Below, one piece after another: positions 23,479 to 33,590 of a DNA stretch of 64,000 nt. The translations under genes and the position numbers were made by a program. The DNA lies in NCBI RefSeq assembly GCF_028680575.1, contig NZ_JAPCKI010000005.1:248001-312000 (forward strand), given 5' to 3'. The stretch comes from Acidovorax benzenivorans (lineage in GTDB: Bacteria > Pseudomonadota > Gammaproteobacteria > Burkholderiales > Burkholderiaceae_C). The notes under the pieces were generated by a model. The model did not search any database. It was not told the DNA's origin and was given only the letters and a program-made list of their open reading frames with translations. The stretch's first letter is position 1. The number at the start of each line of letters is the position of its first letter.

Positions 23479-24573
23479 ATGAGCCTCCAATGCGGCATCG
23501 TGGGCCTGCCCAACGTCGGCAAGTCCACCCTTTTCAACGCGCTGACCAAGGCTGGTATTGCCGCCGAGAACTATCCCTTCTGCACCATCGAGCCCAATGT
23601 GGGCGTGGTGGAGGTGCCAGACCCCCGCCTTCAGCAGCTGTCCGAGATCATCTCGCCCGAGCGCATCGTCCCCGCCATCGTCGAGTTTGTGGACATTGCC
23701 GGCCTGGTGGCTGGTGCGAGCCAGGGTGAAGGCCTGGGCAACCAGTTCCTGGCCCACATCCGTGAAACCGACGCCATCGTCAACGTGGTGCGCTGTTTTG
23801 AAGACGACAATGTGATCCACGTGGCCGGCCGCGTGGACCCGATCTCGGACATCGAAGTCATCCAGACCGAACTGTGCCTGGCCGACATGGGCACCGTCGA
23901 GAAGGCGCTCAACCGCTACACCAAGGCCGCCAAGTCGGGCAACGACAAGGATGCCGCCAAGCTGGTGGCCCTGCTCACCCGCATCCAGGCAGCACTCAAC
24001 GAAGGCAAACCCGCCCGCTCCGTGGAGATCACCAAGGAAGAGCAGCCCCTGCTCAAGTCCCTGTGTCTCATCACGGCCAAGCCCGCCATGTTCGTGGGTA
24101 ACGTGAGTGAAGACGGCTTTGAGAACAACCCGTTCCTGGATCGCCTCAAGGACTATGCCGCCAGCCAGAACGCGCCGGTGGTGGCCATCTGCGCCAAGAT
24201 GGAAGCCGAGATGGCCGAGATGAGCGACGAAGACCGCGACATGTTCCTGGCCGAAATGGGGCAGACAGAACCAGGCCTGGCGCGCCTGATCCGTGGTGCC
24301 TTCAAGCTGCTGGGTCTGCAGACCTACTTCACCGCCGGTGTGAAGGAAGTGCGCGCCTGGACCATCCACATTGGCGACACGGCGCCCCAGGCGGCCGGTG
24401 TGATCCACGGCGACTTCGAGCGTGGCTTCATCCGTGCGCAGACCATTGCCTTTGAAGACTTCATTGCCTACAAGGGCGAGCAGGGCGCCAAGGATGCGGG
24501 CAAGATGCGTGCCGAAGGCAAGGAATACGTGGTCAAGGATGGTGATGTCCTGAACTTCCTGTTCAACGTCTAA
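23479..24573 (+). CDS. ychF: Redox-regulated ATPase YchF
   Basis: Obg-family P-loop ATPase of 364 aa associated with ribosomes and stress responses. Motifs: [15 protein letters not shown] (Walker A, residues ~8-22), [18 protein letters not shown] (G3), and the C-terminal TGS-like end ([19 protein letters not shown]). The last bases form the left copy of a 20-bp direct repeat whose other copy lies at 33486, so a mobile element has inserted at this 3' end. The reading frame is kept intact by the element's copy, with one silent change (GTC for GTG before the stop). Confidence 0.97.
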
Positions 24574-24575
24574 AC
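24556..24575 (+). repeat. Left attachment repeat (attL core) in the 3' end of ychF
   Basis: TTCCTGTTCAACGTCTAAAC matches 33486-33505 at 19 of 20 bases in direct orientation; the only difference is C versus G in the third base of the last sense codon. It spans the ychF stop codon, a usual kind of target for tyrosine integrases, and the integrase gene starts 170 bp away. Confidence 0.85.
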
Positions 24576-24673
24576 AGGAAGAGCTGTTCTTCAGAGTTCG
24601 CCAATGTTCGAAGGTGTTGGCTAACCCATTGATAGATATAGGGAAAGTTGTTCGCCGGTGAACTAGATCGTTC

Positions 24674-24752
24674 GGGGGCATTTTCCATATATGGGGGCAT
24701 GACAGGGGGCACGCACGGTGCATGCCCCCTCCCCAGGAGAAATCATGCCCCC
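24674..24752. repeat. Cluster of GGGGGCAT repeats before and across the integrase start
   Basis: Three direct copies, GGGGGCAT at 24674-24681 and 24693-24700 and GGGGGCAC at 24705-24712, are followed by two inverted copies, ATGCCCCC at 24722-24729 and 24745-24752. The last includes the integrase start codon. Such arrays usually are integrase arm sites and/or operators. Related sequences occur at the other end of the element (33411-33473). Confidence 0.7.
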
Positions 24753-26025
24753 AAACCACCTCGAAACCCGCATGGATGCTGGCGATGCAGCCGTTTCCCA
24801 TGCTCCAAAAAGTCCGACCCGGCGCGGTATCAGTGATGCAGCCCTTCGCGCTGCCAAGCCCACCAGCAAGCCCTACAAACTCTTTGCAGGTAACGGGCTT
24901 TATCTGGAAGTCAAACCCAACGGAGCCAAGCACTGGCGTTGGAAGTACCGCCTTCTTGGCAAAGAGAACCGCGTAGCCCTTGGGAGCTATCCGAAGCTGC
25001 CCCTTCGTGAAGCGAGAGAGGCAATGGAGGCCGCCCGCAAGTTGGTAGAGCAGGGCAAGCATCCTGCACAGCAAAAGCGCCTGGATCGCATCAAGCTGGG
25101 TTTGGAGCACTCCAACACCTTCGAGATCATCGCCCGCGAATGGGTGGGCCTTCGGGACTGGCAGGAGGTCACTAAGGCACGCCGGTTGAACATGCTGGAG
25201 CGCGTTGTTTTCCCTCATATAGGGGCGTTACCCGTCCGCCAAGTGGAACCCGCGCATGTGCTCGATATCTTGAGACGTGCGGACGCAAACAACGGCAACA
25301 GCGTGATGTGCGAGGCGAAGCGCACCATGTCTGCCATCTTCGAGTTTGCTGTCTCCACACTCAGAGCCAAGGTTGATCCGGTCTATCCAGTCCGCAAGGC
25401 CTTGCCTGCCAACAAGACCCAGCACAAGCGGCCTTTATCTTTCGAGGAGGTTGGCGCACTGCTGAACGCGGTGGAAGGCCATGGCGGCTACTACCAAATC
25501 CAGGCCGCGTTCTTTCTCATGTGGCTGACCCTGGCCCGTCCATCCGAAGTGATCGAGGCTGAATGGTGCGAGTTCGACTTGGATCAAGCGTTATGGCGTA
25601 TCCCAGCGCAGAGGATGAAGAAGCGCAAGGAACACCTGATCCCTTTGCCTGCCCAGGCCGTTGCATTGCTGCGCAGCCTACACACGCTCACCGGCAACCG
25701 AACCCATCTCTTCCCCCACCGGGACGACAGGAGAAAACCAATGGTCACTGCATCGTTCCGGCAGATGCTGAAGGCCTTGGGCTGGGCAGGCAAGTTCAGC
25801 CCGCATGCCACGCGCACCACGGGCAGCACACGGCTCAACGAGATGGGCTTCTCCCCGGACTGGATTGAACGCCAGCTGGCCCACGACGAGCCCAACGCCG
25901 TGCGCCGCACCTACAACCACGCGGACTATCTGAAGGATCGGGCCATCATGATGCAGCGATGGGCCGACCTGCTGGACGAGTGGAAAAAGAAGACGGCAGA
26001 CGCCATGAAACCCGTTTTGGGATAA
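24745..26025 (+). CDS. int: Tyrosine-type site-specific integrase (phage/island type)
   Basis: A 426-aa recombinase that would insert and excise the element at ychF. The N-terminal arm-binding region (residues ~25-110, GNGLYLEVKPNGAKHWRWKY) is of the DUF4102 type common in island integrases; a SAM-like core-binding domain follows (~120-210). Catalytic residues are visible: Arg in LTLARPSEVIEAEW, Lys in KKRKEHLIPL, the HxxR box as HATRTTGSTRL, His in RQLAH, and the nucleophile Tyr in RRTYNHADY. All appear intact. The ATG at 24745 is preceded by AGGAGA; an in-frame ATG nine codons upstream is less likely. Confidence 0.95.
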   Translation: MPPNHLETRMDAGDAAVSHAPKSPTRRGISDAALRAAKPTSKPYKLFAGNGLYLEVKPNGAKHWRWKYRLLGKENRVALGSYPKLPLREAREAMEAARKLVEQGKHPAQQKRLDRIKLGLEHSNTFEIIAREWVGLRDWQEVTKARRLNMLERVVFPHIGALPVRQVEPAHVLDILRRADANNGNSVMCEAKRTMSAIFEFAVSTLRAKVDPVYPVRKALPANKTQHKRPLSFEEVGALLNAVEGHGGYYQIQAAFFLMWLTLARPSEVIEAEWCEFDLDQALWRIPAQRMKKRKEHLIPLPAQAVALLRSLHTLTGNRTHLFPHRDDRRKPMVTASFRQMLKALGWAGKFSPHATRTTGSTRLNEMGFSPDWIERQLAHDEPNAVRRTYNHADYLKDRAIMMQRWADLLDEWKKKTADAMKPVLG

Positions 26026-26052
26026 CCCAATTCAGGCTAGACAGTACGCGGA

Positions 26053-26337
26053 ATGTCGAATCCCATGCATGCGTCTCGCTACGGCATCCTGCGAGCACGC
26101 TTAGTTGAATTACGAGAAGCCAAAGGCCTGACCCAGACGGACATTGCCCTTCAGTTGGGCAAGCCGCAAAGCTACGTCTCAAAGTACGAGCGTGGGGAAC
26201 GACGCCTGGACATCGTGGAACTGATTGCGGTAGCGAAGACCCTGGGCGTTGATCCTGCGCAGTTGTGTTCTGAGCTGGCCTGTGAGCCCTTATTCGAGAA
26301 CTTTGACAAGATTTTTTATCCGGGAGGTTGTGAGTGA
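26053..26337 (+). CDS. XRE-family helix-turn-helix regulator
   Basis: A 94-aa Cro/CI-like protein: the HTH spans about residues 10-65 (LRARLVELREAKGLTQTDIA, then LGKPQSYVSKYERGERRLD). It starts 27 bp after the integrase stop in the same direction. Its TGA overlaps the GTG start of the lipoprotein gene (GTGA), so the pair is translationally coupled. It probably regulates the element's own genes; the target site is unknown. Confidence 0.85.
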   Translation: MSNPMHASRYGILRARLVELREAKGLTQTDIALQLGKPQSYVSKYERGERRLDIVELIAVAKTLGVDPAQLCSELACEPLFENFDKIFYPGGCE

Positions 26338-26867
26338 AGTATTCCGTATTGGGTGGATTGGTGTTGTCCGCTATGGCCTTGTTGTCCGGTTGTTTGGGGC
26401 CATCCGTGCCGGAAGCAAAAGATGTCGAGGGAGAGCTTCGGCAAATGTGGGCAGCTTGCAAGATGGTGCGCCCAACCAATATCAGAAAGACCAATGGAAT
26501 TCCTCAAGGTGATGCCTACAGAATTCAGTTTTCGTACAAGCTGGAGTTTGTTAGTGATATCGAAGAGGAGGTTTTGTGGGCATCCAAGATTCCAGACGAA
26601 ACGCCACCTTGGAAGCCGGGGATGAGCAGAGAAGAGTATGAAACGCTAACCCAGGAAGCTGCAGTTATTCGCAAGGCCGTACTGCCGAAGCGCGATAAAT
26701 TTTGGGAAGAGAATTGTCCTGGATTGGTCGGTATGGAGTTTCAGAAGATCGTTATTTCACTTGGAGAAAATACTATCATTGGTAAGCCAGCCCGCAAAGG
26801 TGAGGGTTTGGATATGAATGCAGAATGGGTGATGATTAAGTCTGAAAAAGGCTGGATCAGCCGTTAG
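26334..26867 (+). CDS. Predicted lipoprotein of unknown function on the element
   Basis: A 177-aa protein with a short signal and lipobox (YSVLGGLVLSAMALLSGC, Cys ~20). The mature part (~157 residues) is charged and has no domain I recognise; it contains WENC-like and CKM cysteines (ENCPGL, WAACKM) that could form a disulfide. The GTG at 26334 lies inside the stop of the XRE gene, with GGGAGG upstream as ribosome-binding site. Pairing a regulator with an exposed lipoprotein is typical of lysogenic-conversion cargo (for instance superinfection exclusion), but that is only inference. Confidence 0.7.
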   Translation: MKYSVLGGLVLSAMALLSGCLGPSVPEAKDVEGELRQMWAACKMVRPTNIRKTNGIPQGDAYRIQFSYKLEFVSDIEEEVLWASKIPDETPPWKPGMSREEYETLTQEAAVIRKAVLPKRDKFWEENCPGLVGMEFQKIVISLGENTIIGKPARKGEGLDMNAEWVMIKSEKGWISR

Positions 26868-26937
26868 TGGAACTGGCAGAGATAGACGACTTTAGGTTGC
26901 GACCTTATATACAGTGTTGAAACCACTGTGAGGCTGT

Positions 26938-27141
26938 ATGATGAAAGTTGTTAATTCTTTTGCCGAGGCTGGAGGATTGCTCACTGTCAGTGAATTTTGT
27001 AAGTGGGCCAGCATTGGTCGCACCAAGCTTTATGCAGAGATGAACGCCGGTAGACTCATTGCAAAGAAGTTTGGTAGTCGAACCTTGATTCCAAGGGCTG
27101 AAGCTCAAAAGTGGATGGAGCAGCTACCTACGAAGCATTAA
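26938..27141 (+). CDS. AlpA/excisionase-like small DNA-binding protein
   Basis: A 67-aa winged-helix/MerR-type HTH: LLTVSEFCKWASIGRTKLYA then EMNAGRLIAKKFGSRTLIP. This pattern (T-V-S-E-F ... G-R-T-K-L-Y ... L-I-A-x-K-x-G-x-R) is that of excisionase and AlpA-type regulators, which bend att DNA or control integrase transcription in P4-like elements. It is followed at once by a terminator, so it ends a transcription unit. It is the best candidate for the element's directionality factor. Confidence 0.75.
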   Translation: MMKVVNSFAEAGGLLTVSEFCKWASIGRTKLYAEMNAGRLIAKKFGSRTLIPRAEAQKWMEQLPTKH

Positions 27142-27158
27142 AGCCATCACCCCAATAG

Positions 27159-27188
27159 AAAAGCCGATCATTTGATCGGCTTTTTTGT
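27159..27188 (+). terminator. Rho-independent terminator after the AlpA-like gene
   Basis: GCCGATCA (27163-27170) pairs with TGATCGGC (27173-27180), preceded by A4 and followed by T6 and then more T-rich DNA. Separates the left regulatory genes from the cargo. Confidence 0.85.
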
Positions 27189-27362
27189 TTTTCAGAAAAA
27201 TTTTTACAAAAAGATAGAAGTTTTCCTTGTCAAACGCTACATAAAACGCCCCCCCCGCTTTCCCCTCTGCATTCCTCTCCCTCTATCTATCTGTCTTTGA
27301 TGTTGGGTTGGATGCTCTCTGCGAGAGTGAGTGATGGCAAACGCGATGTAAAGGAAATTTCT

Positions 27363-27623
27363 ATGTCTATGAAGTTATCTCTGAATAGAGCTGAGATGGC
27401 CCGTGAATCATTGATCCAGGCAACGGATTGGTTGGATGCCAAAGGCGTTTACTACAGGCACCTTCCACCTTCACAACTGAAGATCGGCCCCATCAACTAC
27501 TGGCCTTCTACGGGGACCATCACAGTAGACAATGAACCCGGCAAGCGCCCAGACCGAGGCCTTCAGGGGCTGGAACACGTTCTGGGTGAGCTGCAAGGAC
27601 GTTACCCCGTCAGGCGGTGTTGA
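27363..27623 (+). CDS. Small hypothetical protein on the element
   Basis: An 86-aa protein (MSMKLSLNRAEMARESLIQA; later LKIGPINYWPSTGTITVDNE). The ATG at 27363 has AAGGAAA upstream. An N-terminal helix is followed by a beta-rich middle and a helical tail; the IGPINYWPSTGTI stretch suggests a small alpha/beta fold. No family is recognised. It is preceded by a pyrimidine-rich leader (27247-27297) and is the only plus-strand gene between the AlpA-like gene and the nuclease. Confidence 0.5.
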   Translation: MSMKLSLNRAEMARESLIQATDWLDAKGVYYRHLPPSQLKIGPINYWPSTGTITVDNEPGKRPDRGLQGLEHVLGELQGRYPVRRC

Positions 27624-27771
27624 GAGGCGTTGCCCCTAGGGCGTTTGCTGACAATGCATTGTCTTGTAAGTTGTTGATTTTAAAAACAAATTACCAATCG
27701 TTAAGTTGTCTTTTCTGCGGTTTGAGACTACTGGTTCGACTGTTACAAACCGCAGAGGTTGCCCATCCGCC

Positions 27772-28815
27772 TCAAAGCTGGAGGTTCTTCAAGAGCGCCA
27801 AATTTTCCGCCTCAGTCTTCTCTTGCTGGCGAAATTTCCGACGGGGATACAACACATTGATGTCCAGAATCGACTTTTCGAGTGCTGACTTAAATGACGA
27901 GGCCTGTCGTACCTTTTTATTCAAGTTCTGTGAATGCGCTATGCGGCGCATTGCGTGGTTATTGCCAGGATTCTCGTATCTGAAGCGTATCAAGTCTTCA
28001 ATATAGACCTTTTCCCCGGTGGTGATGTGTTCCATGTATTGATTTCTATTGATGCCTTTGCATAAATACTGAAATCGCATCCATTGTTTGTATGGGTCCA
28101 TGCCTTTATCAAGCCTAAGTTTGAATGAGGCTGTGTTGAATTGTGGATTTCTGTTGATCTTTTTAATGCGCTTGGCAACATAGCTTTTAAAGCTATCTGC
28201 ATGCTCCTTCGGAATATGAAAAAGATAGTGAGTGTGAAGCCCCGATCTTTCCGAGTATTCGTTGGAGTACAGCCAATAGAAATTGCTCTTGTGTTTTAGC
28301 CAATCTCTTAGAGGATGAATGACTAGTTCATGAAGACCTGATTCATCCCTGGATGAGTTTTTGGGCTTCACGCCGAGCATTTCCCAGCAGATGGTGAGGC
28401 TAACGTTCAAGACGTAGCCAAGTTCGTTTGCATAGGCGACGGCGCTGTATGTCTCTGTGAGTTCTTCTTTATCAATGTCACGAGATAATACGAACGGATC
28501 ATCCAGGGATATGGTGACGTAGTCCGACCGCCGCAACGTTTCCGCACGGTATAGGTCCGTCTTCTTGGGGTTGAAGCGCTTCCAGCGATAGGGGGTCGCC
28601 TTGTACGAGTGCGGCTCCTCGGTGAACCCTAGTAGTCCTTGGAGAAATTCAGCCTCTGAGCTTCCATTCAGTGCCTTGAAGCGCTGAGCTTCTTCTGAGT
28701 TGCCTAAGTAGGTGGGGAAGCGCTCGCCCGGTTTGTGACCCCCATCCCCCCAGGAAAGGCGATCCCACGCCTTTCCATTGTCTCCGTGGTAACCTTCTTC
28801 ATAGCTATCCAGCAT
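27772..28815 (-). CDS. HUH/replication-initiator-like protein
   Basis: A 347-aa protein with an AT-rich gene. Residues 191-201 read SGLHTHYLFHI, a HxH pair (H194, H196) in a hydrophobic strand like the metal-binding motif of HUH rolling-circle replication proteins. A Tyr-x-x-Lys follows about 44 residues later (Y240-L-C-K243, in WMRFQYLCKG), where the catalytic tyrosine of such enzymes would be expected; a second YVAK is at 212-215. The overall look is that of inovirus Gp2 / YagK-YfjJ-type proteins in integrated elements. A role in replicating the excised element is inferred. Confidence 0.6.
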   Translation of the reverse strand: MLDSYEEGYHGDNGKAWDRLSWGDGGHKPGERFPTYLGNSEEAQRFKALNGSSEAEFLQGLLGFTEEPHSYKATPYRWKRFNPKKTDLYRAETLRRSDYVTISLDDPFVLSRDIDKEELTETYSAVAYANELGYVLNVSLTICWEMLGVKPKNSSRDESGLHELVIHPLRDWLKHKSNFYWLYSNEYSERSGLHTHYLFHIPKEHADSFKSYVAKRIKKINRNPQFNTASFKLRLDKGMDPYKQWMRFQYLCKGINRNQYMEHITTGEKVYIEDLIRFRYENPGNNHAMRRIAHSQNLNKKVRQASSFKSALEKSILDINVLYPRRKFRQQEKTEAENLALLKNLQL

Positions 28816-28854
28816 GTTGACCTCGTAAGGTAGTTTTGGTGCTGGATATGGCTT

Positions 28855-29130
28855 TCAGGAGGTCAAATGATCTAGCGATTTTTGGAAATTTTCTTTATGC
28901 GAAAATACCAATCGATAGTTATCTTGTATTGGATGGGCAGTCAATAGTCGTTGGCGACCCAAAGGCTCTGATCGCAATATAAAACCTTTCCCTGAAATCC
29001 GAAATTTGAATCTGTATTTAATCTTGCTAAGTAGCCGTCGTTTATTTCGAAAAAGATCGGGAAGCGATTTAAAGCCATCAGGCCATGGCGTCAGGCGGAG
29101 AGGCTGCTCTGATTTTGCCCTCGGGACCAT
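28855..29130 (-). CDS. Possible small basic protein of unknown function
   Basis: A 91-aa frame starting inside the 3' end of the metallopeptidase gene (53-bp overlap) and ending 39 bp before the Rep-like gene. It is basic (FRNKRRLLSKIKYRFKFRIS) with no recognised domain. Position between two same-strand genes supports it, but the long overlap and lack of a clear ribosome-binding site make it uncertain. Confidence 0.35.
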   Translation of the reverse strand: MVPRAKSEQPLRLTPWPDGFKSLPDLFRNKRRLLSKIKYRFKFRISGKGFILRSEPLGRQRLLTAHPIQDNYRLVFSHKENFQKSLDHLTS

Positions 29131-30331
29131 GCCCCCAAATTATCACGCCAGAAATTCTTTTTCTGAACGAGTCAGTAAAATTCATCAAACCTAGAGGAGA
29201 GCCAAATCGGCGGATCTCCTTAACTCTGGGTAGCATTTCATCCCAGCACGTCACAATTGGCTGGAGATATTGGAGAACGACAGGGTTAGTAAGGAGTCCC
29301 TTGAGCAAGAATCGATCATCGAACTCGTGTTTCTCCGTTTTATTCATTGACCAATACAACGTGGCCGAAAGTGCGGCCTTTCCGCAAAGAAAAACGAGTT
29401 GTTTGCGATCGAGGCCGTGATCTATAACCTTCCCTATCATGTCCAAGCTCTCGAAGATTTGCGGCACATTGATTTCCAGTCGAACCAATGGATTGGGATG
29501 AGAGCCTTCGATGACCGCTGTCGGCAGAATCGGTTGACTTCCATTGAAGCGGAAGAAGAGCAAAGAGAGGCCGCATACCATCAGGTAAATCAAACCGGAT
29601 AAAACTTCGGTTCGCTTCTTGTCGTCGACGAAATCTGGATCTGTGACATGTCGAAGTAGCTCGAAGACGTAGAAGTGCATCGCCTCAAAGTCGGCTGCCA
29701 GTTCTGTAACGTGAGAGACTAGCGCCTCTCGACCAATGAGGCGTTTGTCGTGTGAGGCTTCAAAATCATGGATGTCGGTCGTCTGCGCGGCGTTGCTATG
29801 GCATTCCGCGAATTCGGCACGGATAACACCATGCTCTTGCATGAGGTGGCCGATCTCGTGAAAATACACCCACGTTATAGCTGCGACGAATATGTTCTTG
29901 ACGATTTCCTCGTCGTCGAAGCACTTCGGAAGCTTTATCCTATCGCCGTAGAAGTCATAGAGCTTGTCGACCCCAGAATCTTCGGGAATGCGTCGCAAGA
30001 ACTCGCAAAGGTTCTCAGCATCACGCCATACTTGGCGTACTAACTCGTAGTGCATAGTGACGCGATGCCTCGGCGGCTTGCCTGCTTCACTCAGCGTGGA
30101 TGCGAAGGCACCGAACTTTTTCTCTTCGCGCCAAATAATCGTCAACTCTCCGCCTAGCTTGGCGTATGTAGTTTCATTCAGATCATGAGTGATGTCGCCA
30201 ATGACACGACTCGCTAAGTCATAGATCTCTATGTCCTCCAATGAGCACCCCCTTTTGTGCAGTTCACCAACTTTGGGCAGACGTAGACAGTATTTTCTGC
30301 GACAAGATGCACGCTCAAGAGGTCGAAGCAA
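29078..30331 (-). CDS. Unfamiliar HExxH zinc metallopeptidase on the element
   Basis: A 417-aa protein. Residues 156-166 (VYFHEIGHLMQ) carry an HExxH zinc motif (H158, E159, H162). A second acidic motif ELAAD at 210-214 supplies the expected third ligand (glutamate ~48 residues on), and SHPNPLVRL (277-285) resembles the HP..R signature after the active site of M48-like peptidases. One hydrophobic stretch (LSGLIYLMVCGLSLLFF, ~244-260) may be a membrane segment. It is not clearly of a named family. Phage-exclusion protein Lit (U49) is also an HExxH protease carried by an element, so an abortive-infection role is possible but unproven. The start at 30331 is tentative. Confidence 0.65.
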   Translation of the reverse strand: MLRPLERASCRRKYCLRLPKVGELHKRGCSLEDIEIYDLASRVIGDITHDLNETTYAKLGGELTIIWREEKKFGAFASTLSEAGKPPRHRVTMHYELVRQVWRDAENLCEFLRRIPEDSGVDKLYDFYGDRIKLPKCFDDEEIVKNIFVAAITWVYFHEIGHLMQEHGVIRAEFAECHSNAAQTTDIHDFEASHDKRLIGREALVSHVTELAADFEAMHFYVFELLRHVTDPDFVDDKKRTEVLSGLIYLMVCGLSLLFFRFNGSQPILPTAVIEGSHPNPLVRLEINVPQIFESLDMIGKVIDHGLDRKQLVFLCGKAALSATLYWSMNKTEKHEFDDRFLLKGLLTNPVVLQYLQPIVTCWDEMLPRVKEIRRFGSPLGLMNFTDSFRKRISGVIIWGHGPEGKIRAASPPDAMA

Positions 30332-30553
30332 CGCGGCGTCCGGCTCCTGTCAGTACGAGACTGTGATGCTAATGGAGGTGCGCGCATCGGCTGCGAATCA
30401 AGCCGTGAGAAACGCGGCAAGGGTCATGTCGAAAGCAGTCGATCACCGATGGCTCCTGGCCGACTTCAGCCTTACAAAGGCCTAAACAACGAGGCCTGTT
30501 CTTGGAATCTGAGCAAGAGGCGGTGATCCCCCTCGCTTCATCCAAGGATAGAC

Positions 30554-31516
30554 ATGTACCAAAACCGACTTCCGCTAGTTCCCCCAGATATCCTCCAGGC
30601 ACACATGGTGCATGAGCCTGGAGACACCCGCTTCAAAGCCGCAGCGAGACTCCTGCAGGCCCTATGGCGAGCAGAGCGAGGCATCCCCATGGGCACCCAC
30701 GCCCCAGCCAATGGCGAGCCCCGCAAGCTGGGTAGCCGCATTGAAGCTAGCTATGCCAAGCAGGGGGCAAACTTCCTCTCCCCGGCCATCGCCAAGCTGG
30801 CTTTCCGTGAGTCCGTTTATCGGGAGATTGGTGCAGTCATCGAGCAGGAGCGCCTATGGACCAACATGCTGTCCAGCCAGCCCCTTTGCTTCAACCTGTT
30901 TGGTGACCTGAAGCTCAATCCCGACAAGGGCAACAAGTTCTTTCAGCAGCTTTTCCCCGACTACGTTGCAGAGGTGGAGGACATCTACTTCGAGCATTCA
31001 CCTGGGCGAGGGGATGCATCCTTCACTGCAGACAACACAGCCTTTGACGTGTTCGTGACCTGCCGCACACCCGAGGGCAAGCAAGGCTTTATTGCCGTCG
31101 AAGTGAAGTATTCCGAGGCCATGGCTGAGCCCCTGGCAACACTGCGCCCACGCTATGACGAACTCTCCCGAGCCGTGGGCATTTACCGTGAACCAGAATC
31201 CCAATCACTCAGGGGGAATCCGCTTCAGCAGCTATGGCGGGAGCACATGCTCAGCCGCGCCATGGTGGGCAATGGGCTCTATGAGTCAGGCCGATTCGTC
31301 CTGCTCTACCCAAAACAGAACCACCACTGCGAGAGTGCAGCCAAGCTTTATCAACGAGAGTGCATCAGTCCTGATCCTGCTGTGTCAGGTTTCCAGGCGG
31401 TGACCTTGGAGGCTTGTCTGGCGGCATACAAGGCCATCGGAGATGAAGAGGCAGCCCAAGCCCTGCATGAGCGATACCTAAATTTCAGCAAAATCGAAGA
31501 GGTTATTTTTGGGTAG
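30554..31516 (+). CDS. Putative restriction endonuclease, PD-(D/E)xK type (PGN_0703-like)
   Basis: A 320-aa protein starting with AAGGA before the ATG. The core reads FDVFVTCRTPEGKQGFIAVE followed by VKYSE, giving D165 ... E183-V-K185, a PD-(D/E)xK nuclease signature. The overall pattern resembles the PGN_0703 family of putative restriction endonucleases. No methyltransferase is adjacent, so if it restricts DNA it either recognises a modified or foreign feature or works as a stand-alone effector. Composition is nearer to the host than that of neighbouring cargo. It diverges from the metallopeptidase across about 220 bp. Confidence 0.7.
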   Translation: MYQNRLPLVPPDILQAHMVHEPGDTRFKAAARLLQALWRAERGIPMGTHAPANGEPRKLGSRIEASYAKQGANFLSPAIAKLAFRESVYREIGAVIEQERLWTNMLSSQPLCFNLFGDLKLNPDKGNKFFQQLFPDYVAEVEDIYFEHSPGRGDASFTADNTAFDVFVTCRTPEGKQGFIAVEVKYSEAMAEPLATLRPRYDELSRAVGIYREPESQSLRGNPLQQLWREHMLSRAMVGNGLYESGRFVLLYPKQNHHCESAAKLYQRECISPDPAVSGFQAVTLEACLAAYKAIGDEEAAQALHERYLNFSKIEEVIFG

Positions 31517-31620
31517 CGCTTGGCTGCAGATCTATCCTGCGTATCCAAGTGATACTTCCGGAGCATTTGCCCAAAAGGCGATTTTTTCATGCAGCATCAA
31601 TTGGATAGAATTTACCGAGA

Positions 31621-32181
31621 CTAAAGAGTGAAATTCCAATCTGAACTTGATCCTGATGTTTTTGAGAATTGCTCGTAATTTCTGGCAAATTCAGAAAAGA
31701 GGGTCCAGTGATCCTCGTCGAAATTCATGCCTTGGCGGAAGTTTTTTCCCTTGAATGCGCAGTTTGCATAATATCCAAACATGTATTGACATGCATCGGA
31801 ATTCAGCATTTCTGACCGAATCAGCAGCTCTACCTCCTCGATAAATACTGCGAATTTTCTATTTTTCTCCCAGCATTCCTCCTCTGCTAGGCGTGGATCA
31901 TCTCCGTCCAGATACTGGAGTACTATTTTTAGATCTGGGTCATCAAACAAACGGCGATGCTGGTCAAGGAAGAACTTCACTCTTTCCAGTTTATGACTCT
32001 TCTCGGCTTGCTTGCGAGCGACAGACTTATCCATGAAATATTTTATCAATGCGCCAATGGCGACACTTAGTGTGATTAATATTCCAAGTGATTGCCAAGT
32101 GGCGGACCACTCTGCCATCGTCATGCACTTATCAAGAAGTGGAGGCTTGATGGTTGCACAGAAAATTGCGTCGTCAGCCAT
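31621..32181 (-). CDS. Single-pass membrane protein of unknown function, second gene of a two-gene operon
   Basis: A 186-aa protein: a short N-terminal region, one transmembrane helix at about residues 30-50 (SLGILITLSVAIGALIKYFM), then a charged cytoplasmic domain (KSHKLERVKFFLDQHRRLFD, residues ~60-175) with many aromatic and acidic residues. No family is recognised. The start overlaps the end of the upstream gene by 8 bp, so the two are translationally coupled. The gene is very AT-rich for this chromosome. Confidence 0.65.
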   Translation of the reverse strand: MADDAIFCATIKPPLLDKCMTMAEWSATWQSLGILITLSVAIGALIKYFMDKSVARKQAEKSHKLERVKFFLDQHRRLFDDPDLKIVLQYLDGDDPRLAEEECWEKNRKFAVFIEEVELLIRSEMLNSDACQYMFGYYANCAFKGKNFRQGMNFDEDHWTLFSEFARNYEQFSKTSGSSSDWNFTL

Positions 32182-33007
32182 TGGGTAACTCGTTAATGCC
32201 TTCTACGTTGACTCGCTTGACTTGGTCGCGGCTACCCGTAACTGCATAAATTCCAAAGAGACGCTGCCCTCCTTCTCGAAGACCAGCCAAGGCCGCTTCC
32301 CTCATTGATTCTGCTGCTTGTAGGTGTGAATGATGCCCTGTTCCCAGTATATCTTTGATAAAAAAAGGAACAGTTCGACCATATTTTTTGAAATATGCGC
32401 GTCCTCTTCCGGTGAGGATGTTGTACTTGGTGACGTTGCCGACTAAATATTCTAAATCCGGACTGACATTCGATACGGATATGTAGTCCAATGTGTCGCG
32501 ATTAAATACCAATTTATCGCCAACTTTTGGGCGAACGAGTTTTACTGTTTGAGCGCTCGTTGACCAAATTGGTCGATGGACGTCTATTAAATGCTTTTCT
32601 ATGTTTGATGCAATATCATCAAATATAAATGGCTCTTCTGTATTTAAATTTATCCCCCAAGGGGTTAGGGGGTCATAGTCGATGCCGGCTGCTACACCCA
32701 TTGATAGTGATAAATAGTCCCAAAACCGTGCAACTATTACGCTGCTGCCGTGGTGTGCAATGGCTTTCTCGCTAAAAGAGATATCCATTTGCAACTCGAA
32801 GCATCCCTTCTTTGCTGCGGTCAGCGAAGTTCCAAAGTCAGTTCTTACTGGAACACGGTTTCGCACTTCATTTTCATGCACGAACGCATGGCCCACTATA
32901 TTTAATGAAACAGCAAAGCCTTCAAGTACCGCCGCAGCGTCAACCAAGTCCAGTTCGCCTTCGTCGGCTTGATTACCCTCGATTTGCAGCCAAATTCCAG
33001 CTCTCAC
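32174..33007 (-). CDS. Unknown protein, first gene of a two-gene operon on the element
   Basis: A 277-aa protein without signal or membrane segments. The N-terminal ~80 residues alternate in a beta-rich pattern (IWLQIEGNQADEGELDLVDA, then CFELQMDISFS), the middle is mixed, and the C-terminal ~50 residues are basic/helical (LQAAESMREAALAGLREGGQ). I recognise no named domain. Coupled by overlap to a membrane-anchored partner downstream, at the right border of an element that also carries a nuclease; this layout is common for two-gene anti-phage or toxin-type modules, but nothing in the sequence proves it. Confidence 0.65.
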   Translation of the reverse strand: MRAGIWLQIEGNQADEGELDLVDAAAVLEGFAVSLNIVGHAFVHENEVRNRVPVRTDFGTSLTAAKKGCFELQMDISFSEKAIAHHGSSVIVARFWDYLSLSMGVAAGIDYDPLTPWGINLNTEEPFIFDDIASNIEKHLIDVHRPIWSTSAQTVKLVRPKVGDKLVFNRDTLDYISVSNVSPDLEYLVGNVTKYNILTGRGRAYFKKYGRTVPFFIKDILGTGHHSHLQAAESMREAALAGLREGGQRLFGIYAVTGSRDQVKRVNVEGINELPNG

Positions 33008-33485
33008 AGTACCATCCCCCTCTTATGATGTGAATTTGAATCAGAATAGCACGGCTTGCGCCAATTCAAAGTGCTAGATGTACTCGCTACTAGCCTTGTA
33101 CTGCTCAGGAGTTCAACGCGAACAAGTGCACGAGGAGAAGCGGTGGGTAGGCGTCGCGTGATCGGCTTGAACGTAAACGCGCAGCTCGGAACGATGGAGG
33201 TCGATGCGCAATGGCCCCCGGAGCGGACTTGACTGGTCAGCTTGTTGATGACCGCTCAGCAGTCCGACACGTCAACTGGCGTGACCCTGCGACTCTGCTT
33301 AACAACTGACCGCCAAGATCGAACAGAGATCGAGGAGGTCAACTTCAGCTAGACTGAACCGAAGCAGGGAGCCCCGATGTTCGCCACTGTTCACCCGCAT
33401 CCGAAGGATTTGGGGGCATGGCAGGGGGCACCAAGCGAGTAGAGCAGAGACGATAACCAATCAAATCATGCCCTTACAGCGACAA
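33008..33485. other. Gene-free right end of the element
   Basis: A 478-bp stretch with no convincing gene. The first ~60 bp should hold the promoter of the two-gene operon. From about 33100 to 33350 the sequence is GC-rich again and broken by stops in all frames; it may be the remains of a decayed gene. The last ~100 bp resemble the DNA just upstream of the integrase (see the repeat at 33380-33473). Confidence 0.5.
33380..33473 (+). repeat. Right-end copy of sequences found before the integrase
   Basis: Three blocks recur in direct orientation and in the same order as in 24597-24750. TTCGCCACTGTTC (33380-33392) matches 24597-24609 with one change. The 21 bases 33411-33431 match 24692-24712 with one change and contain GGGGGCAT and GGGGGCAC. 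AAATCATGCCC (33463-33473) is identical to 24740-24750, which includes the integrase start. Confidence 0.7.
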
Positions 33486-33505
33486 TTCCTGTTCAACGTG
33501 TAAAC
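33486..33505 (+). repeat. Right attachment repeat (attR core)
   Basis: TTCCTGTTCAACGTGTAAAC, 19 of 20 identical with the end of ychF at 24556-24575, same orientation. It restores the likely original last codons and stop of ychF upstream of the terminator at 33548. Confidence 0.85.
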
Positions 33506-33547: not shown

Positions 33548-33590
33548 TCCCTGCCATCCCTGTCTGCCCTTGGGCTGGCAGGGATTTTTT
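33548..33590 (+). terminator. Probable original ychF terminator, now 9 kb from ychF
   Basis: TCCCTGCCA (33548-33556) pairs with TGGCAGGGA (33576-33584), with a nested GCCC/GGGC dyad in the loop and T6 after the stem. It lies 43 bp beyond attR with no gene between, so it fits as the ychF terminator displaced by the insertion. Confidence 0.8.

Follow-up and report, generated by a model that had tools for sequence, protein, structure and literature searches.

The dusA-specific integrases form a family tied to one conserved protein-coding gene and, with their 21-bp imperfect repeats, occur in many bacterial genomes (PMC4482086). The locus described here, in a 64,000-nucleotide stretch of DNA from Acidovorax benzenivorans (contig NZ_JAPCKI010000005.1, positions 248,001 to 312,000; hereafter the window), very probably holds an 8.9-kb non-conjugative integrative element, inserted in the final codons of ychF by the tyrosine integrase that it encodes. 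This judgement covers the explanation as a whole, including the reaction, the roles of the genes, a borrowed means of transfer, the defence-type cargo and the specificity of the integrase branch for ychF. By their description, the dusA islands resemble the ychF elements in combining an integrase family with one conserved protein-coding target. The dusA islands, however, enter the 5' end of the gene and supply a new one, whereas the ychF elements use the 3' end (PMC4482086). The prophages of S. pneumoniae also have ychF as a neighbour, but they are inserted upstream, on its 5' side, and have a different printed attB (PMC8637289, PMC10383233); the ychF position of the S. pneumoniae prophage integrase of PMC6375853 is as given in PMC8637289. 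In other papers matched by ychF together with integrase, the mentions of ychF belong to marker-gene lists, expression or protein-abundance data, vaccine antigens and a prophage gene list. Among the papers listed in searches of the open-licence PMC literature, none was found in which an integrase targets the 3' end of ychF; other papers, databases or supplements may list the site. The preliminary description of this DNA had called ychF a less familiar target, which the literature searches bear out, yet the site is widely used across hosts.

The insertion site and the ends of the element, with their attachment (att) sites, have the following features, in window coordinates:

23479..24573, + strand: ychF, the integration target (open reading frame; YchF-GTPase_C, 2.8e-37 in Pfam; complete protein with the C-terminal end ...NFLFNV*)
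24555..24581, + strand: perfect 9-bp inverted repeat with a 9-bp spacer, at attL (CTTCCTGTT-caacgtcta-AACAGGAAG)
24556..24575, + strand: attL core, the left repeat, spanning the ychF stop (sequence reading and match search of the window; TTCCTGTTCAACGTCTAAAC)
24674..24711, + strand: three GGGGGCA repeats of the left end (starts 24674, 24693 and 24705; kept in 5/5 aligned elements)
24718..26025, + strand: tyrosine integrase of 435 amino acids with a P4-like domain layout (open reading frame and Pfam, NCBIfam and PHROGs scans; 37-38% identical to P4 int)
33412..33430, + strand: two GGGGGCA repeats of the right end (starts 33412 and 33424; kept in 5/5 aligned elements)
33486..33505, + strand: attR core, the right repeat (sequence reading and match search of the window; one C/G difference from attL)
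33548..33590, + strand: credible displaced terminator of ychF (hairpin of -31.7 kcal/mol, z -2.78; the same hairpin follows ychF in the empty-site genome G017)

The ychF stop, TAA at 24571-24573, lies within the attL core. The two cores are 19/20 identical and 8,930 bp apart, and when the variable base is left open and up to 4 mismatches are allowed, nothing else in the window matches. When the left core is compared with the next 20 kb, its best match has 1 mismatch, while 40 first-order resamples give 5-8, so the repeat is far beyond chance; a chance repeat is ruled out by these controls. The preliminary description had pointed to a 20-bp direct repeat, 19/20 identical, at the ychF stop and at 33486-33505, to an intact integrase adjoining ychF, and to AT-richer enclosed DNA. 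Both copies are indeed read at these positions, the frame from 24718 to 26025 is open throughout, and the G+C content of the element is 50.9%, against 64.8% in 8 kb of flanks. It had also placed the terminator of ychF past the right repeat, and the hairpin found there makes this credible. The terminator scan puts it at 33563-33582 and 33568-33583, in a whole scan that gave 14 sites against 9.9 expected.

The state of the site before insertion is seen in relatives. YchF was found in 46 of the 47 genus genomes searched and the integrase in five; the genome without a YchF match, G032, is 72% complete. Among the 46 ychF ends, 40 are empty over 1.5-2 kb, five are followed by the integrase and one is cut off by the edge of its contig. 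In the 45 genomes with the stop in view, the last codon of ychF before it encodes Val. Empty ychF had been predicted to run straight into the DNA now stranded beyond the right repeat, and this is what G017 shows: its ychF ends ...TTCCTGTTCAACGTC-TGA, the 33548-33590 hairpin of the window follows, and the rarD match begins 124 bp on. By a crude scan, 13 of the 40 empty genomes, and none of the five occupied ones, have a terminator-like hairpin that starts within 250 nucleotides after ychF. That the genes simply stand in their natural order, with a repeat arisen by chance, has a negligible probability. No point in its favour was found; the 40/46 genus genomes without the insert, the empty site of G017, the resampled controls and five elements with the same ends all speak against it, and a natural gene order is ruled out. 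In one empty genome, G042 (L105), the ychF end is followed by AACAGAAAGAGCTG, which is close to the left end of the element; the genome is counted as empty because a terminator follows the ychF end and no integrase lies within 1.5 kb. This resemblance may be a scar, or a hint of the origin of the attP arm.

The empty and occupied relatives show the states before and after the reaction. The recombination itself is what we infer between them: the integrase would recombine the attP core of a circular form of the element with the matching 3' end of ychF. With the two sequences matching, ychF keeps its frame and stop, and the terminator and rarD are pushed 8.9 kb away. An intact integrase, att repeats at both ends and an empty site in relatives, by which a tyrosine-integrase element is recognized, are all present, and the earlier proposal of an element in the 3' end of ychF that keeps the frame and displaces the terminator is upheld by the empty-site relatives and both att copies.

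Both att sites are present, with left and right ends alike, in five elements of the same type: that of the window (8.9 kb) and those of G027 (6.7 kb), Acidovorax delafieldii (7.8 kb), MR-S7 (6.7 kb) and G337 (6.8 kb). An element of another type in G384, 6.5 kb long, also has both. Exact ends are thereby provided for islands so far visible only as an integrase adjoining ychF. The cores carry host-specific bases (GTC-TAA in the left and GTA-TGA in the right core of MR-S7; CTCTTC in the left and CTGTTC in the right core of G027), and their position on the two sides suggests that the crossover takes place within the core. An inverted repeat flanking the core is the usual form of integrase core sites, and the 9-bp inverted repeat at attL, whose right half AACAGGAAG is shared by the left ends of the elements in G027, A. 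delafieldii, MR-S7 and G337, likely represents candidate core-type sites. A GGGGGCA pair with 12-bp spacing stands at each end of the element, with a third copy on the left; judging from the sequence, these repeats are likely candidate arm-type sites for the Arm-DNA-bind_3 domain of the integrase, which has arm-binding, central and catalytic domains. The non-coding right end (33008-33480) has one match elsewhere in its own genome, of 35 bases at 86% (E 0.008).

The element ends are kept in 5/5 even though identity between the Rep protein of the window and its counterparts in the other four is no higher than 42-47%. The core genes common to the five encode the integrase, the XRE regulator, the AlpA-like protein, a 108-residue protein, Rep and a PDDEXK_13 protein. 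For the last, the window copy shares 93-96% identity with the other four, in contrast to Rep, so that cassettes have probably been exchanged. Among named strains, Acidovorax sp. MR-S7 and A. delafieldii DSM 64 carry the integrases closest to that of the window. MR-S7 is classed in another genus; its integrase is 98.6% identical to that of the window while its YchF is 88% identical, which argues for recent transfer between hosts.

The integrase is consistently associated with ychF well beyond these five. In the family search (399 genomes, integrase E of 1e-110 or better) and the order search (399 genomes, 1e-85), the best four candidates per genome were scored, so that the counts are lower bounds. 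All ten family genomes with a match, the window's own included, have the integrase directly after ychF, at 52-100% identity. At least 30 places in 28 genomes were matched in the order search. At 46% identity or more, 14/17 are next to ychF, L137 starts at a contig edge, and L139 (a truncated frame) and L140 are not; at 44% or less, none of 13 are (12 informative; L148 has only 560 bp upstream). In the wider collection of genome contigs, ychF is found at five of 57 loci, of which four have an integrase at 84-98% identity and L100 ends 22 residues into the integrase. It is found at none of the remaining 52 distant loci, 46 with enough upstream DNA and six with too little. Some records occur twice in these sets (L044/L118, L045/L102, L046/L103 and L047/L104). 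An accidental P4-type integrase near ychF is ruled out by the 0/52 distant loci and 0/13 distant order places.

In a tree of 71 rows, 28 ychF-adjacent rows fall in a clade of 30 with a Shimodaira-Hasegawa-like approximate likelihood-ratio (SH-aLRT) value of 100, and the ychF label needs three changes, compared with 22.6 when shuffled. This tree omitted 12 rows and nine of unknown status, and added L139, L167, L186 and L187. In the first tree, with 88 rows, nine of unknown status, and long outlier branches, the label needs four changes against 23.3; in the second (69 rows, with ten chosen outlying rows and the nine unknowns omitted) ychF lies on one side of a branch with an SH-aLRT value of 63 only. 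As in dusA-type families, related integrases in the 71-row tree cluster by one target gene across hosts, and ychF can be added to the protein-coding genes that have an integrase clade of their own. Before L140, and likewise before its sister L155, stands a reading frame with a product that resembles the C-terminus of anthranilate synthase component I, so neighbouring integrase branches may have other fixed targets. At L167, a ychF-clade integrase (60% identity) is carried on a conjugative P. veronii plasmid, where it does not adjoin ychF.

Other integrases of this type next to ychF, which the preliminary description had proposed to look for, thus occur in the family, the order and more distant hosts. 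In Aeromonas caviae KAM479 (where the integrase is split in two), E. coli STO_Bone4 and Salmonella IndS104, ychF is directly followed by an integrase at 58-63% identity. The three entries are labelled as plasmids, but in those of E. coli and Salmonella the DNA shows the chromosomal hemA-prs-pth-ychF neighbourhood. Among 5,426 complete E. coli genomes, 628 have the integrase and 627 the ychF-integrase junction; 512 of the 628 copies are at 99% or more, and many carriers are close kin and do not represent independent events. With adjacency observed in Burkholderiales, Aeromonas, Salmonella and E. coli, it appears that islands unrelated to one another are served in these hosts by an integrase branch with a lasting specificity for ychF. 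In the sequence type 131 (ST131) strain MB1341 (L189:196-27508), the annotation of the DNA after ychF lists a same-clade integrase, AlpA, a reverse transcriptase of the retron Ec67 type and an ABC-three-component system. About 27 kb on, some 400 bp before dhaR, the end of ychF recurs as a 15/18 copy; as a suggestion only, it may mark the far end of the island.

The remaining genes of the window element are:

26053..26337, + strand: XRE/Cro-type regulator (HTH_3, 2.4e-16)
26334..26867, + strand: putative lipoprotein, judged by its N-terminus, in a variable slot among relatives (no family match in Pfam, NCBIfam, PADLOC or PHROGs, hereafter the four family scans)
26938..27141, + strand: AlpA/excisionase-like helix-turn-helix protein (TIGR01764, 2.4e-7; HTH_17, 5.3e-6, at its cut-off; aligned with three relatives)
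27297..27623, + strand: conserved open reading frame of 108 amino acids (83-89% in G027, A. delafieldii and MR-S7; about 51% in G337)
27772..28815, - strand: HUH-like Rep of 347 amino acids (conserved GxHTHxLxHxP and YxxKR in the alignment)
29078..30331, - strand: cargo, Lit-like metallopeptidase with a HEIGH motif (PADLOC Lit, 4.2e-7 over 42 residues; Peptidase_U49, 6.4e-4, below cut-off)
30554..31516, + strand: PD-(D/E)XK nuclease-family protein, PDDEXK_13 (1.7e-110; 93-96% in four other elements)
31621..32181, - strand: cargo, protein of 186 amino acids (no family match in NCBIfam, PADLOC and PHROGs)
32174..33007, - strand: cargo, DUF7946/7947 protein (Pfam, 1.5e-9; phrog_13337, 7.2e-36)

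AlpA would act as excision factor, activator or both, the XRE protein as repressor, and the HUH-like Rep would replicate the excised circle. The motifs of Rep are ones that we take to be the HUH pattern; against PF23343 the protein stays below the cut-off (9.7e-4 for the window copy, 3.7e-5 for the G027 copy). At E of 1e-6 or better, Rep relatives are found in 3/299 family and 3/47 genus genomes, five distinct ones including the window, each within a ychF element. The putative lipoprotein is matched at 36-46% in G027, MR-S7 and G337 and has no match in A. delafieldii.

The host would be repaid with cargo of a defence type, which appears exchangeable. The right-hand slot contains a SIR2 protein in A. 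delafieldii (L102:8406-9962; PADLOC PDC-S25, E 9e-183), a defence candidate; a protein of about 331 amino acids without a family in G027, MR-S7 and G337; and the 186-residue and DUF7946 proteins in the window, where the Lit-like metallopeptidase sits between Rep and the nuclease. Four plasmid genes of P. fungorum are 76.5% identical to the Lit-like gene at the DNA level. With the SIR2 protein of A. delafieldii and the reverse transcriptase and ABC-three-component system of ST131, ychF is a possible hotspot for defence genes.

The gene content recalls several satellites. P4 int is 37-38% identical over 89% of the window integrase, which is accordingly of P4 type. The gene list of P4-like satellites comprises the alpha primase/helicase, psu, sid and delta, and the four family scans of the element gave no match to an alpha or a psu/sid/delta-like family. 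The Gram-negative phage-inducible chromosomal islands (PICIs) have int at one end, AlpA, a replication gene and phage-resistance-type cargo, as the window element appears to have (PMC6092414). Unlike in PICIs, no primase-replicase or packaging gene was found in the four family scans; int and AlpA are present, and the replication gene is Rep-like, not a primase. The phage-inducible chromosomal minimalist islands (PICMIs) of Vibrionaceae are similar on a 6-kb scale, with int, AlpA and one replication gene, short repeats, a conserved chromosomal gene as site and defence cargo, but they require a DUF3987/DUF5906 primase and fis, where the window element has an HUH-like Rep and ychF (PMC10803314). 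Int and AlpA are there, no primase family appears in the four family scans, and the insertion is in ychF, not beside fis.

An integrase with AlpA-like and Rep-like genes and no structural genes had earlier been read as a satellite-type element. The family scans match these genes, weakly in the case of Rep, and turned up no structural genes among the element proteins, so the label is plausible on gene content. A true phage satellite would be induced by a helper phage, replicate by its own Rep, be packaged in helper capsids and block competing phages with its cargo. This is a serious possibility, if a little short of an even chance. The integrase, regulator, AlpA, replication gene, defence-type cargo and size of 6.5-9 kb without structural genes found all fit it, as does the parallel of a 6.1-kb PICMI with 17-bp repeats at fis, which needs int, alpA and prim and carries a defence system (PMC10803314). 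It is weakened by attP, attL and right-end patterns without a match in viral contigs, by phage records that match the DNA from 24576 to 32500 only in one 89-base integrase stretch at 74%, and by a Rep for which no relative was confirmed in viral contigs and phages gave a single weak match (present as two records). The four family scans gave no terminase match, and no helper was identified, helpers and cos/pac sites not having been searched for. Cell-to-cell movement would use the machinery of another element, most likely a phage. Compact and tractable, the Acidovorax element offers a way of asking whether an HUH-type Rep can support a satellite-like life cycle.

The conserved HTH and YxxK motifs of Rep are of a kind common to relaxases and Reps, and a close integrase (60%) is carried by the conjugative P. 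veronii plasmid. The element could, on these grounds, be an integrative mobilizable one, whose HUH-like protein is a relaxase/Rep that nicks an origin of transfer (oriT) and which is moved by a co-resident conjugative plasmid or integrative and conjugative element. This is unlikely. Pfam gave no relaxase family match among nine element proteins (the 186-residue protein not among them) and the sole plasmid match of Rep is weak; oriT was not searched for.

At 27652-27772, the Rep profile match continues past the stop and over further stops, so the window copy may lack a C-terminal tail present in three relatives (forms of 390 amino acids). A lost tail would suit an immobile remnant kept only for its cargo. 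Against this, the Rep match of G337 is likewise without the tail; the integrase and AlpA are intact, as are the two att sites and the conserved ends; and int, unlike YchF, hardly differs between genera. A remnant is distinctly improbable.

Several observations weigh against the overall explanation of a mobile element from a ychF-specific branch. No excised circle or attP junction was seen in the viral contigs, the only place searched, and no transfer system was identified. Rep has a weak family match, and its AlphaFold2 model is too poor for use (predicted local distance difference test score, pLDDT, of 38). The first, larger tree gave no single clean ychF group; in the 71-row tree, L139 and the P. 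veronii plasmid integrase lie inside the 30-row clade, the ychF-adjacent L154 falls outside it, and neither the first two nor L140 adjoin ychF. Among seven loci of other types (L120-L126), both att sites are found in only one; in the 9-19.5 kb examined, L120-L124 and L126 yielded no such pair, and L103 and L104 end at contig edges.

In the terminator scan, no + strand terminator is listed between ychF and int, and ychF transcription may, from this, reach int. A wider claim would join such read-through to an undescribed, widespread integrase family fixed on the 3' end of ychF, a universal gene for a translation-linked ATPase, and to a new type of satellite that replicates with an HUH-type Rep in place of a primase; the combination is rather doubtful. 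If the read-through is true, expression of int would depend on being integrated. In Aeromonas caviae (L166:5491-5718), a hairpin with a T run (AAAACCCCGGAATACCGGGGTTTTT) stands between ychF and the integrase, and that branch, unlike the Acidovorax type, seems to have a terminator there.

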